Shown here: piece by piece, positions 44,899 to 49,577 of the stretch
Layout of the letters: every line of letters begins with the position of its first letter
Numbering within the stretch: the stretch's first letter is position 1
From: Propionibacteriales bacterium
GTDB lineage: Bacteria > Actinomycetota > Actinomycetes > Propionibacteriales > Nocardioidaceae
Assembly (NCBI GenBank): GCA_026392465.1
Contig: JAPLCA010000015.1
Location: forward strand, 124,001-188,000
Direction: 5' to 3'
Length of the DNA: 64,000 nucleotides
Translations under genes and position numbers: made by a program
Notes under the pieces: model-generated
What the model was told of the DNA's origin: nothing
The model's input: the letters and a program-made list of their open reading frames with translations, nothing else
Databases searched by the model: none

Positions 44899-45687
44899 TC
44901 AGGCGAGGTCGACCACGACGGGGGCGTGGTCGCTCGCGCCCTTGCCCTTGCGCTCCTCGCGGTCGATGAACGCCCCGTCGACGCGGGCCGCGAGTGCGGG
45001 GGACGCGAGCACGAAGTCGATGCGCAGGCCGCGCTTCTTCGGGAACGCGAGCTGCTGGTAGTCCCAGTAGGTGTAGGTGCCGGGCCCGGGGGCGTACGGG
45101 CGGACGACGTCGCTGAAGCCGGTGTCGACCATCGCGCGGAACGCGGCACGCTCGGGTTCGGACACGTGCGTCTTGCCCTCGAAGACCGTCATGTCCCACA
45201 CATCGTCGTCCTGCGGGGCGATGTTCCAGTCGCCGGTGAGGGCGATCTGCGCGTCGGGGTCGGCCGCGAGCCAGCCCTCCGCGTCGGCGCGCAGGCGGGC
45301 GAGCCACTCCAGCTTGTAGGCGTAGTGCTCGTGCGCGAGGTCGCGCCCGTTCGGCACGTAGAGGCTCCACACGCGCACGCCCCCGCAGGTGGCGCCGACC
45401 GCGCGGGGCTCCAGGACGGGCGGGTCGCCGAACGTCGGCTCGTCGACGAACGACGTCGCCACGTCGTCGAGGCCGACCCGCGACAGGAGCGCCACGCCGT
45501 TCCACTGGTTCAGCCCGACGTGGACGTACTCGTAGCCCATCGACGAGAGCTCGAGCGCGGGGAACTGGTCCTCGCGGCACTTCGTCTCCTGGATCGCCAG
45601 CACGTCGACGTCGTGCCTCTCCAGGAAGGCCGTCACGCGGTCGACGCGGCTACGGATCGAGTTCACGTTCCAGGTCGCGATACGCAC
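44899..45687 (-). CDS. xthA: Exodeoxyribonuclease III
   Basis: This 262-residue exonuclease III/AP endonuclease has MRIATWNVNSIRSR, the metal-site Glu in VLAIQETKCRE, LTGDWNIAP, LRIDFVLAS and a final SDHAPVVVDLA. All expected catalytic residues are present. It acts in base excision repair of abasic sites. It is divergent from the DUF559 gene, with the hairpin repeat at 45723-45779 lying 36 bases upstream of its start. Confidence 0.95.
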   Translation of the reverse strand: MRIATWNVNSIRSRVDRVTAFLERHDVDVLAIQETKCREDQFPALELSSMGYEYVHVGLNQWNGVALLSRVGLDDVATSFVDEPTFGDPPVLEPRAVGATCGGVRVWSLYVPNGRDLAHEHYAYKLEWLARLRADAEGWLAADPDAQIALTGDWNIAPQDDDVWDMTVFEGKTHVSEPERAAFRAMVDTGFSDVVRPYAPGPGTYTYWDYQQLAFPKKRGLRIDFVLASPALAARVDGAFIDREERKGKGASDHAPVVVDLA

Positions 45688-45722
45688 CCCCCGAACCTAC
45701 CTCCCCGCCCGGCAGTCCCCAC

Positions 45723-45779
45723 GATTCGGTACGTCATCGCCCATTCTGGGCGCAGGAATGGGCGATGACGTACCGAATC
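45723..45779. repeat. Perfect 24-bp inverted repeat, 5' of the DUF559 gene
   Basis: The arm at 45723-45746 (GATTCGGTACGTCATCGCCC plus ATTC) pairs with 45756-45779 with no mismatch, around the 9-base loop TGGGCGCAG. A near-copy with the same arm and loop lengths lies at 46769-46825, just past the stop of the intervening gene. One base pair differs between the copies on both arms (A-T here, G-C there). No T-run accompanies it, so it is not an ordinary terminator. Confidence 0.9.
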
Positions 45780-45846
45780 CTGGCGAGGGAGAGGCGCCTG
45801 TGGGCAGCGGGATGAGCGATCGAGACGTCCGCGCCAGGCTTCAGGC

Positions 45847-46767
45847 GTGGAGGACGTGCCGGAGGAGCTGCGGGACAGACCGTTCACGTCCGCCCAGGCT
45901 GCACGGTCGGGAGTGACGTGGAAGGCGCTGCAGTCTCGACGGTTCCGACGGCTGTTCCCGGACGTCTACGTCTGGTCGGGGCTGGACGTCGACCTGCTCG
46001 TCTGGATCCGCGGCGCCCTGCTCAAGCTGCCCCCGGACGCCGTCGTCAGCGGTGTCACCGCGGCCAGGCTGTGGGGCTTCGATCCCGTCGGCCACCGCGA
46101 GCTGCACTTCGCCACGAGGTCGGACGTACGGACCAGGCTCCCGGTGCGTCTTCACCGGCACCTCCACGAGGTCGCACGGGTTCGGCGGCACGGCGTGCCG
46201 ACCACGGCGGCACCGCGCACGGTCGTCGACTGCGCTCGGGAGCTCGGCATGGTCCAGCTCGTGCAGCTGATCGACCACCTCGTCCACGTCGGTGCGCTGA
46301 CCAGGGAGCAGCTCTTCGGGTACTGCTGGAGTCGGCACCTCCACGGCGTGCGACGCGCGCGACGAGCGCTCGTGCTTGCCGAGGACGGGGCCGAGTCGCC
46401 ACGGGAGACCGCGCTGCGGCTGATGATCGTGCTCGCTCGTCTCCCGCGTCCTCGCCCGAACGTGGACGTCCTCGCCGCCTCGGGGCGGTTCGTGGCTCGC
46501 GTCGACCTGCTCATCGAGGAGTACGCGGTCGTGGTCGAGTACGACGGACGTCAGCACGAGACCGATGCGTGGCAGTGGCAGCGTGACCGCGTGCGACGCG
46601 AGGAGCTGGAGGCTCTCGGCTACCGCGTGATCGTCGTGACAGCGGTCGACATGCGACGGCCCGAGCAGGTCATCCGGCGGATCCACCGGGCTCTCGCTGA
46701 CCGCGGCTATGCGGGTCCGCTCGTCACGAACGTCATGTGGCACCGCTGGTTCCCCTCCGCGACGTGA
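45847..46767 (+). CDS. DUF559 nuclease-like protein with AbiEi-like N-terminus
   Basis: This 306-residue protein has an N-terminal AbiEi_4-like winged-helix region (FTSAQAARSGVTWKALQSRR, AVVSGVTAARLWGF) and a C-terminal DUF559 domain of the Vsr/PD-(D/E)XK nuclease fold. The nuclease-like residues are in FVARVDLLIEEYAVVVEYDG (Asp220, Glu231) followed by RQHETDAWQWQRDRVRREEL. Such proteins occur in many copies in actinobacterial genomes with unknown function. GTG 45847 is the start that keeps the N-terminal domain. Matching hairpins bracket the gene. Confidence 0.82.
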   Translation: MEDVPEELRDRPFTSAQAARSGVTWKALQSRRFRRLFPDVYVWSGLDVDLLVWIRGALLKLPPDAVVSGVTAARLWGFDPVGHRELHFATRSDVRTRLPVRLHRHLHEVARVRRHGVPTTAAPRTVVDCARELGMVQLVQLIDHLVHVGALTREQLFGYCWSRHLHGVRRARRALVLAEDGAESPRETALRLMIVLARLPRPRPNVDVLAASGRFVARVDLLIEEYAVVVEYDGRQHETDAWQWQRDRVRREELEALGYRVIVVTAVDMRRPEQVIRRIHRALADRGYAGPLVTNVMWHRWFPSAT

Positions 46768-46768
46768 G

Positions 46769-46825
46769 GATTCGGAACACCATCGCCCGTTCTCGCGCGC
46801 GGAACGGGCGATGACGTACCGAATC
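46769..46825. repeat. 24-bp inverted repeat, 3' of the DUF559 gene
   Basis: The left arm 46769-46792 (GATTCGGAACACCATCGCCC plus GTTC) pairs with 46802-46825 at 21 of 24 positions around the 9-base loop TCGCGCGCG. It starts two bases after the DUF559 stop codon. The right arm matches the right arm at 45756-45779 except for one base. Arm length, loop length and sequence show that the two hairpins are copies of one element. Confidence 0.9.
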
Positions 46826-46832
46826 GGGGGGA

Positions 46833-47168
46833 CTAGACGTCGTCGAGGTCGTTGCGCTCGAGGCGGGAGGTGTCGGCGATGCCGGTGCGGAAGGCGGCCC
46901 GCGCGACCATGTGGGCCGACACCGGGGCGGTGATGAGCTGGAACAGCGCCACGAGGGCGATGATCGTCAGGGCGCCGGGGTCGTGGATGCGCAGGGCGAG
47001 GCCGGCGAGCACCAGCAGCAGGCCGAGCGTCTGCGGCTTGGTCGCCGCGTGCATGCGGGTCAGCACGTCCGGGAACCGCACCAGGCCGATGGCGGCCACG
47101 AGCGCCAGCGCGCTGCCCGTCAGCAGCAGAGCGCCCGACACGACGTCGACGAGCAGGTCGGTCGTCAT
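46833..47168 (-). CDS. mrpG: Mrp antiporter subunit G
   Basis: This 111-residue membrane protein has three hydrophobic segments and the family core RFPDVLTRMHAATKPQTLGL, typical of MnhG/MrpG. It is the last gene of the operon. Its ATG overlaps the mrpF stop. It is needed for assembly of the multi-subunit Na+/H+ antiporter. Confidence 0.93.
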   Translation of the reverse strand: MTTDLLVDVVSGALLLTGSALALVAAIGLVRFPDVLTRMHAATKPQTLGLLLVLAGLALRIHDPGALTIIALVALFQLITAPVSAHMVARAAFRTGIADTSRLERNDLDDV

Positions 47169-47973: not shown

Positions 47974-49577
47974 CGGTCGCCGCCCAGGACGGCCTGCACG
48001 TACGGCGTGCGCTGCAGCAGCTCGTCGGCCGCGGCGTCGGTGACGCGGAACAGCGGACCGGCGAACACGGTGAGCGCGACCGAGGCGACGACGAGGGCGA
48101 GGGTCGGCAGGCCCATGCCGAGCGGCAGCCTCTGCTCCTCGGCGACCCGTGCCCACGACGACGTCTGCTGCGTGCGGGTGGACACATCGCCACCGCCGTG
48201 CAGGGCGCCGTGCGACCAGACGTCGGAGCCGTCGTCGACCACCGACTGCGCGAGGTCGTCGTCGACCGGCTGCCAGAAGGCCCGGTTCCAGACCTTGGCG
48301 ATGGCGTACAGCGTCAGGAGGCTCACCGCGACGCTGGCGACGACGGCCGTGACGGCCAGCCAGTCACCCGCCTCGATGCCCGCCCGCCCGAGCGCGACCT
48401 TGCCGAGGAACCCGGAGAACGGGGGGATGCCGGCCAGGTTCATGGCGGGCACGAAGAACGCGACGGCGAGGATCGGCGCGGACCGGGCGAGTCCGCCGAG
48501 CCGGTCGAGGTTCGTCGTGCCGGTGCGGTACTCGACCAGCCCGGCCAGCAGGAACAGAGCCGTCTGCACGGTGATGTGGTGCGCGATGTAGTAGACGGCG
48601 CCCGACAGCGCCAGCTCCGTCCCCAGCGCCACCCCGAGCAGCATGTAGCCGATGTGGCTGACGAGGGTGAAGGACAGGATGCGCTTGATGTCGGTCTGCG
48701 CGACCGCGCCGAGGATGCCGACGAGCATCGTCAGGATCGCCATGGTGAGCAGCAGCGGCCGCAGGGAGTCGTCGGGGAACAGCAGCGTCTGGGTGCGCAC
48801 GATCGCGTACACGCCCACCTTGGTGAGTAGGCCCGCGAAGACGGCGGTGACCGGCGCCGGTGCGGTCGGGTAGGAGTCGGGCAGCCAGGCGGACAGCGGG
48901 AACACGGCCGCCTTGATGCAGAACACGGTGAGCAGCAGCAGCTGCAGCAGGTGCGCGACCGCGGGGTCGAGGTCGCCGAGGCGCTGCGACAGCTGCGCGA
49001 AGTTGACGGTGCCGACGGCGGCGTAGATGCAGGCGATCGCCACCAGGAAGATGATCGACGACAGCAGGCTGACCACGATGTAGACCGTGCCGGCGCGGAT
49101 CCGCGCCTCCGTGCCACCGAGCGTGATGAGCACGTAGCTGGCGGCCAGCAGCACCTCGAACCCGACGAACAGGTTGAACAGGTCGGCCGACAGGAACGCG
49201 TTCGACACCCCGGCGCTCAGCACGAGGTACGTCGGGTGGAACACCGAGAGCGGCGTGTCGCGGCCGTACTCGACGATGCCCTGGCCGAAGGAGTAGAGCA
49301 GCACGGCGAGGGTCACGACGGACGAGACGAGCAGCATGAGCGCCGAGAGCCGGTCGGCGACCAGGGTGATGCCGATCTCGGGACCCCAGCCGGCGACGGT
49401 CAGCGCCTGCGGGCCCTGCGTGTCGGCGCGGTACAGCAGCACCGAGGCGGTGGCGACGACGGCCGTGAGCACGGCGACGCTGACGATGCGCTGCGCACGT
49501 GCGGACCGGCCGAGCACGAGGCACAGGCCCGCGCCGAGCAGCGGGAGGAGCACGGGCAGGACGACGAGCTGGGTCAT
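47970..49577 (-). CDS. mrpD: Mrp antiporter subunit D
   Basis: This 535-residue NuoM/NuoN-like membrane protein has about 14 helices: VLSAGVSNAFLSADLFNLFV, FCIKAAVFPLSAWLPDSYPT with the conserved Lys, and FTLVSHIGYMLLGVALG. It is the second large proton-pumping-like subunit of the antiporter. A longer than usual C-terminal extension (DDDLAQSVVDDGSDVWS) precedes the last helix. ATG 49577 overlaps the mrpC stop. Confidence 0.94.
   Translation of the reverse strand: MTQLVVLPVLLPLLGAGLCLVLGRSARAQRIVSVAVLTAVVATASVLLYRADTQGPQALTVAGWGPEIGITLVADRLSALMLLVSSVVTLAVLLYSFGQGIVEYGRDTPLSVFHPTYLVLSAGVSNAFLSADLFNLFVGFEVLLAASYVLITLGGTEARIRAGTVYIVVSLLSSIIFLVAIACIYAAVGTVNFAQLSQRLGDLDPAVAHLLQLLLLTVFCIKAAVFPLSAWLPDSYPTAPAPVTAVFAGLLTKVGVYAIVRTQTLLFPDDSLRPLLLTMAILTMLVGILGAVAQTDIKRILSFTLVSHIGYMLLGVALGTELALSGAVYYIAHHITVQTALFLLAGLVEYRTGTTNLDRLGGLARSAPILAVAFFVPAMNLAGIPPFSGFLGKVALGRAGIEAGDWLAVTAVVASVAVSLLTLYAIAKVWNRAFWQPVDDDLAQSVVDDGSDVWSHGALHGGGDVSTRTQQTSSWARVAEEQRLPLGMGLPTLALVVASVALTVFAGPLFRVTDAAADELLQRTPYVQAVLGGDR

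Follow-up and report, generated by a model that had tools for sequence, protein, structure and literature searches.

The closest described relatives of the arrangement reported here are the REP/RAYT systems (REPtrons), in which mainly intergenic palindromes are dispersed over the chromosome, a gene lies beside its own palindrome family, several such gene-palindrome pairs occur per genome, and the sites are located between convergent or same-direction genes, as described in PMC3116915 and PMC3733652. REPs are given in PMC3733652 as 20-40 bp long, and the same source describes the CGTC-type REPs, a large class of palindromic repeats, as lacking a dedicated transposase or enzyme. Two further groups share parts of the protein studied here. 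The EDxHD homing endonuclease I-Bth0305I dimerises on a target that PMC3943268 gives as nearly 60 bp, and proteins of the AbiEi family, the antitoxins of type IV toxin-antitoxin systems, are reported in PMC7319586 to bind 23-bp inverted repeats spaced 3 or 13 bp. Among the titles, abstracts and passages of open-licence papers that were covered, no link was found between palindromic repeats and DUF559, a Pfam family of unknown function; two papers that mention both appear from their titles to concern Aliivibrio quorum sensing/CRISPR and NAD metabolism.

Here, a DUF559 nuclease gene lying between two long hairpins was analysed, starting from a window of 64,000 nucleotides, that is, the whole stretch of DNA under study. 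The host genome comprises 3.69 Mb in 39 contigs and is assigned to the genus Aeromicrobium. The features of the locus are as follows, in positions of the window.

44899-45687, minus strand: left neighbour, exonuclease III-like gene (xth; Exo_endo_phos)
45716-45786, no strand: upstream palindrome in its extended form, 31-nt arms, 94% complementary, 9-nt loop TGGGCGCAG
45723-45779: core of the upstream palindrome (copy 1), 24+9+24 nt, 24/24 arm pairs
45847-46767, plus strand: DUF559 nuclease gene, 306 aa, GTG start
45883-46341, plus strand: putative AbiEi-like DNA-binding module, aa 13-165 (PADLOC AbiEi models, Foldseek match 6y8q)
46396-46701, plus strand: Vsr/EDxHD-type nuclease domain, aa 184-285, with conserved E187, D220, E231 and H237
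46769-46825, no strand: downstream palindrome (copy 2), 24-nt arms, 21/24 pairs, loop TCGCGCGCG
46833-47168, minus strand: right neighbour, mnhG antiporter subunit

The sequence-only reading had described two hairpins of identical 24+9+24 layout and similar sequence, the second starting two bases after the stop codon and the two differing by a compensated arm change. All of this was recovered: the hairpins occupy 45723-45779 and 46769-46825, they are 78% identical over 64 nt, the stop ends at 46767, and the exchange of A-T for G-C is located at arm position 21. Two details were absent from that description. Arm positions 8, 11 and 12 of copy 2 are unpaired, and the palindrome is longer than first described, the family carrying an outer TCCCCAC / GTGGGGA that adds 7 nt per arm. 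In copy 1 the left outer part is complete and 5/7 of the right one are kept; in copy 2 the left part is mostly lost and 6/7 of the right one, which extends to 46832, are kept. When up to 3 mismatches were allowed, the arm motif was found four times in the whole window, each time within the two hairpins, and never in 100 shuffles.

The assignment of the protein to a Vsr/PD-(D/E)XK-type nuclease domain joined to an AbiEi-like domain was borne out by profile and fold searches. Pfam DUF559 (PF04480) was matched with 28.9 bits against a gathering cut-off of 20.6, and 67 of 75 aligned relatives matched it at E 0.01, while an NCBIfam search returned a single weak and irrelevant match. The N-terminal part matched the PADLOC AbiEi models (best E 3e-13). 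The AlphaFold model was very confident (pLDDT 96.7, pTM 0.92), and its only Foldseek matches below E 0.001 were two chains of the AbiEi antitoxin 6y8q (E 3.5e-5, prob 1.00, TM 0.50 by target length), followed by the catalytic domain of I-Bth0305I, 3r3p (E 0.10, prob 1.00, TM 0.80 by target length). Profile searching gave 3hrl at E 9e-6 and 3r3p at E 0.02. The residues E187, D220, E231 and H237 are invariant across 42 genus proteins; across 75 wider proteins E231 and H237 remain invariant, and E187 and D220 are at least 90% conserved. Relative to the copy in genome G029, dN/dS is 0.19, which indicates purifying selection.

With I-Bth0305I the locus shares the Vsr-like fold with conserved acidic and His residues and a long candidate target, the palindromes measuring 57-71 nt; it differs in that the gene lies outside any intron or intein, the candidate targets are many and scattered, and the other part of the protein is AbiEi-like. 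With the AbiEi antitoxins it shares the N-terminal fold and paired inverted repeats of the kind that the family binds, but no DUF1814 toxin is found among the immediate neighbours, and the AbiEi-like part is fused to a nuclease. Both the paired-repeat binding of the AbiEi family and the dimer target of I-Bth0305I fit the palindrome. The likeness to REP/RAYT that had been noticed from the sequence holds for layout and copy number: palindromes flank the gene, many palindromes of one family are dispersed (28 places in the host genome), several gene-palindrome pairs occur per genome, and the sites are placed similarly. The enzyme is unrelated, being AbiEi-like plus Vsr-like whereas RAYT is a Y1 HUH transposase. 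The palindromes are also longer than REPs, and those of the window type lack the majority GTAG end, their outer consensus being TCCCCAC (from 39 copies of this type only). The CGTC-type REPs are likewise palindromic repeats, yet CGTC is internal and not terminal in the palindromes here. Since the layout is that of REP/RAYT and the enzyme is not, the system is classed as a new kind.

In order to examine the association beyond this locus, 91 of the 252 DUF559 matches in the genus were inspected (30 as returned, 60 hand-picked down the listing, and locus L059). A palindrome score of at least 12 and an upstream window of 40-130 nt were used, both set after the first loci; control genes, taken from a codon-based gene caller written for the analysis, were scored identically. 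An upstream palindrome was present at 59/91 DUF559 loci and 3/161 control genes (Fisher 4e-30), a palindrome at the stop codon at 51/91 and 17/161, respectively, and a matching upstream/downstream pair at 33/91 and 0/161; two control genes (2/161) had both palindromes when any sequence was allowed. Raising the threshold to 14 left 48/91 upstream and 40/91 downstream palindromes at DUF559 loci against 2/161 and 16/161 in controls. Two other control sets, genes in mnhG loci and genes with a real upstream gap, gave palindromes in 2/85 and 3/48 cases. A further set of 46 loci, 10 of them from Aeromicrobium (L262-L308 minus L287, drawn from a wider list of 80 loci), contained 24 with an upstream palindrome and 11 with a matching pair. 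From the same 80 listed loci, 39 outside or beside the genus were tested, and at least one palindrome was found at 26 of the 38 having enough flank.

The test proposed in the sequence-only reading, whether paired hairpins bracket DUF559 genes more often than chance, thus had a positive outcome, and two objections that this reading raised against itself can be answered in part. The first was that the hairpins might be common intergenic repeats lacking enrichment beside the gene; they are indeed dispersed repeats, but the lack of enrichment is contradicted by the counts above. The second was that relatives might keep the gene without hairpins; this is so at 16/91 loci at threshold 12, but 75/91 have at least one palindrome, with sequences that differ by lineage. 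One of the loci without a palindrome, L215, is among the three DUF559 homologs examined in the host genome itself.

The palindromes are matched to their genes. Their sequences differ from locus to locus, and at loci with both palindromes the partner across the gene was the best match among 35 in 33 of 35 cases. Most genus genomes encode several divergent DUF559 homologs, and among pairs of same-genome paralogs with palindromes the arms were alike in 0/58, while among protein pairs at least 75% identical they were alike in 22/23. Over 75 loci, protein identity and arm similarity were correlated (Mantel r 0.44, exceeded in 0/999 permutations), a value that includes shared descent. The linkage of gene and palindrome and their cognate pairing are regarded as firm. 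A defence role, in which the protein would be a nuclease against foreign DNA and would be marked, restrained or fed by the palindromes, would suit both the several divergent homologs per genome and the fact that the AbiEi models matching the N-terminal part come from a defence library. We regard it as improbable: the gene is directly adjoined by an exonuclease III-like gene on one side and mnhG on the other, with no toxin partner in these positions, and a separate palindrome for each paralog suits element-enzyme pairs better.

Many of these palindromes are multi-copy. Among the matches listed, and with the gene's own copies counted, at least 10 of 19 genus palindromes occur at three or more places in their own genome (the palindromes of L090 and L169, within the 19, form a single family in two genomes; the genome of L075 was outside this search). 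The other nine, L083, L089, L184, L176, L086, L103, L201, L085 and L225, occur at one or two places among the matches listed. Hand counts including the gene's own copies gave at least 23 places in G040, at least 9 in G007 and at least 10 in G036. Outside the genus, at least 10 of 12 palindromes occur at three or more places by the same reckoning; among the matches listed, those of L267 and L299 occur at two places and those of L270 and L307 at three, two of which are at the gene. Own copies included, at least 17 places were found in Microbacterium sp. 5K110, at least 24 in Curtobacterium flaccumfaciens and at least 9 in a Nocardioides MAG. Two palindrome families, at no fewer than 10 and 7 places, occur in a Nocardioidaceae MAG that has two DUF559 loci.

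For the window type, a search of the host genome that tolerated up to 3 mismatches in the arm pattern gave 43 matches, corresponding to 22 hairpins; for 21 of these the two arms are both listed, at a 37-nt offset. A covariance model trained on 39 copies (22 from the host genome, 13 from G029 and 4 from G005) located, by hand count, 28 places in the host genome, 25 in G029, 11 in G005 and 3 in G019, and at E 0.01 any match at all was obtained in 9/49 genus genomes. G005, where the closest DUF559 protein shares 54% identity with that of the window, gave lower scores, though the model leans to the host's own copies. With the 2-mismatch arm motif, several matches were found in 3/49 genus genomes and one weak match in a fourth. 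The arm-motif search that had been suggested as a check thus showed dispersal in the host genome, but since the motif is confined to few Aeromicrobium genomes, this search alone would hide the general association. The profile of the 39 copies gave the half-site consensus TCCCC[AC]CG[AT]TTCGG[AT]ACGTCATCGCCC, followed by a variable apex. An identity with a known RNA family was rejected, since the only Rfam match, mir-3138, lies below the threshold (31.6 bits, where the gathering score is 90) and is regarded as chance.

The placement of the copies bears on two other explanations. Seventeen of the 22 host hairpins could be scored in gaps between called genes, the other five being inside a called gene or lacking a neighbour on one side; 12/17 lie between convergent genes, compared with 28/186 of other gaps, and 22 of the 24 sides of these 12 hairpins are 1-34 nt from the neighbouring stop. 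Such placement, and the downstream palindromes of 17/161 control genes, is what ordinary bidirectional terminators would show, and the palindromes may have a terminator side function. As the full explanation, with the DUF559 bracket a coincidence, terminators are highly improbable and contradicted by the association statistics: the dispersed copies conserve the arm sequence itself beyond mere pairing, control genes rarely carry an upstream palindrome and never a matching pair, and the arms track the protein. Copy number and placement are equally REP-like, so that a transposase encoded elsewhere, of the Y1/RAYT or another type, could be moving the palindromes as REPs, and DUF559 would be a passenger. 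This is very unlikely. A search of the host genome for Y1_Tnp, the RAYT family, gave no match and was positive in 5/14 control genomes, a result that covers this family and this genome, and DUF559 paralogs within one genome have different palindromes.

Two of the scored hairpins lie in divergent gaps, namely the upstream member of the window pair and the upstream member of a second pair. Between the members of this second pair, in an identical layout, lies a glyoxalase-like gene (L049:4001-4517; G000, the host genome, C21:77830-78346); the pair has an orthologous pair in G029 (L062) and may represent a cassette with other cargo. Further hairpin pairs about 1.8 kb apart were observed in the host genome at C4:46339/48122 and C7:32167/33998, the match at C7:32167 being weak and partial, and a pair of similar spacing is located in G005 at 48656/50438.

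Comparison with relatives gives some view of the history of the cassette. The orthologous cassette locus is present in G029. In relatives without the DUF559 cassette the exonuclease III-like gene adjoins mnhG; in two of these, G005 and G019, one hairpin of another type was recognised by eye between the two genes. This hairpin (L126, L127) has the outer arm in common with the window type and a different inner arm, and a modular build is suggested for the palindrome types, whose ends are related and whose inner arms are particular to a lineage. The end pattern of the other-type hairpin occurs at 9 places in G019, one of them just upstream of that genome's own DUF559 homolog. Thirteen cassette-free alleles at five other sites showed no matching lone palindrome, two of them having an unrelated inverted repeat (L332, L340), which speaks against a simple rule by which every insertion of the gene would be homing into a palindrome already there. 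Homing of this kind is supported only at the xth-mnhG site, where the lone hairpin is of another type.

The comparison of empty sites was extended to solo hairpins by seeking the flanks of 12 host hairpins in G005, G029 and G019, and 18 pairs were aligned. One clean empty site resulted (L048/L309). No clear target-site duplication, a feature of MITEs, was seen at L048 versus L309, the cleanest empty site, and none was definable over the 18 aligned pairs. Two G005 sites keep part of the left outer arm (L047/L311, L056/L314) and are read from their sequence as deletion scars. The site orthologous to L052 bears a short hairpin of the outer arms alone in two relatives (L312 and L313), which could be either a remnant or an older terminator. 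At the remaining aligned sites a hairpin was present or the sequence was too diverged for reading.

Arm changes are two-sided more often than expected. In the 12 hairpins common to the host and G029, 16 two-sided arm changes were counted where 2.8 were expected, and 7 of the 16 concern arm pair 8, which is T-A in 7/12 shared host copies, 12/22 host copies overall and 0/16 G029 copies. The loops of four of the seven hairpins changed at arm pair 8 agree at 7 or more of 9 positions, that of window copy 1 being identical, and this points to arms rewritten in place. Because loops are poorly conserved overall (40/108 positions differ across the 12 pairs), such rewriting is clear only where the loops agree. 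A recent duplication of copy 1 as the source of copy 2 is unlikely, since the loops of the two copies differ and that of copy 1 is identical to the loop of its G029 ortholog; the loop of copy 2 has no clear likeness to that of its own ortholog.

The cassette itself is more diverged than its surroundings. Its dS to G029 is 0.81, compared with a median of 0.24 and a maximum of 0.56 for 51 background genes and 0.20 for the flanks, which makes plain vertical descent unlikely. For seven DUF559 pairs background genes were available, and dS was raised in three. The two raised pairs besides the window, L103/L189 (G006, G007; 0.92 against 0.25-0.53) and L093/L094 (G032, G009; 1.02 against 0.32-0.43), are possible further allele exchanges. 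Four pairs were near background, namely L182/L197 (0.23, above its own two neighbours at 0.07 and 0.11), L211/L212 (0.33), L079/L059 (0.20) and L090/L169 (0.36-0.47); L178/L187, a pair without background genes for comparison, had 0.97. Allele exchange at fixed sites is the likely cause; as only three of the seven pairs are raised, a faster synonymous rate in some copies remains an alternative.

Taking as a basis the observed layout, enrichment, matched pairs, co-divergence, dispersal, conserved nuclease residues, two-sided arm changes and divergent cassette, we propose, with moderate confidence, that gene and palindromes form one system in which a palindrome-recognising nuclease spreads and homogenises its own sites. 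Linkage and cognate pairing are direct observations; we infer binding, cutting, mobility and a spread driven by cutting. The AbiEi-like module would recognise the palindrome family of its own gene, probably with one monomer on each of the two arms, and the Vsr-like domain would cut or nick at the recognised palindrome. Through repair of the break, new sites could then acquire copies of palindromes or of the whole palindrome-gene-palindrome cassette, and arms could be rewritten to suit the resident enzyme. The operation would resemble that of REP/RAYT, or of a homing endonuclease with many targets.

Selection on binding sites could also produce the co-divergence without any cutting. The palindromes would then form a network of binding sites with no cutting in vivo, in which the AbiEi-like module would occupy the upstream palindrome as an operator of the gene, and the scattered copies, dispersed by another cause, would serve in regulation or act much like terminators. 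Many upstream palindromes do lie about 60-110 nt ahead of the start codon, AbiEi-family antitoxins autoregulate via inverted repeats according to PMC7319586, and symmetric arm changes suit selection on binding. Against this, the solo copies are mainly between convergent genes (12/17 versus 28/186) and not at promoters, such a network gives no reason for a palindrome at the stop codon, and conservation of the nuclease residues is at least 90%, some being invariant. We therefore consider such a network unlikely, and a nuclease that acts on its palindromes is preferred.

The pairing of each enzyme with its own palindrome makes the role of DUF559 testable, and the same applies to palindromic repeat classes without an enzyme, such as the CGTC type. 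Genomes offer dozens of natural enzyme-target pairs, and swaps between them would reveal the recognition code. It is suggested tentatively, and with less confidence than the reading of the system itself, that these loci represent selfish elements of a class widespread in actinobacteria. In such elements a palindrome-recognising nuclease of the Vsr type would be what makes its own dispersed palindromes spread and change in concert, and at fixed sites one nuclease allele would take the place of another. If true, this would be a nuclease-based counterpart of REP/RAYT, and if the nuclease drives the spread, bacterial palindromic repeats would have a second route, beside RAYTs, to their origin and uniformity.
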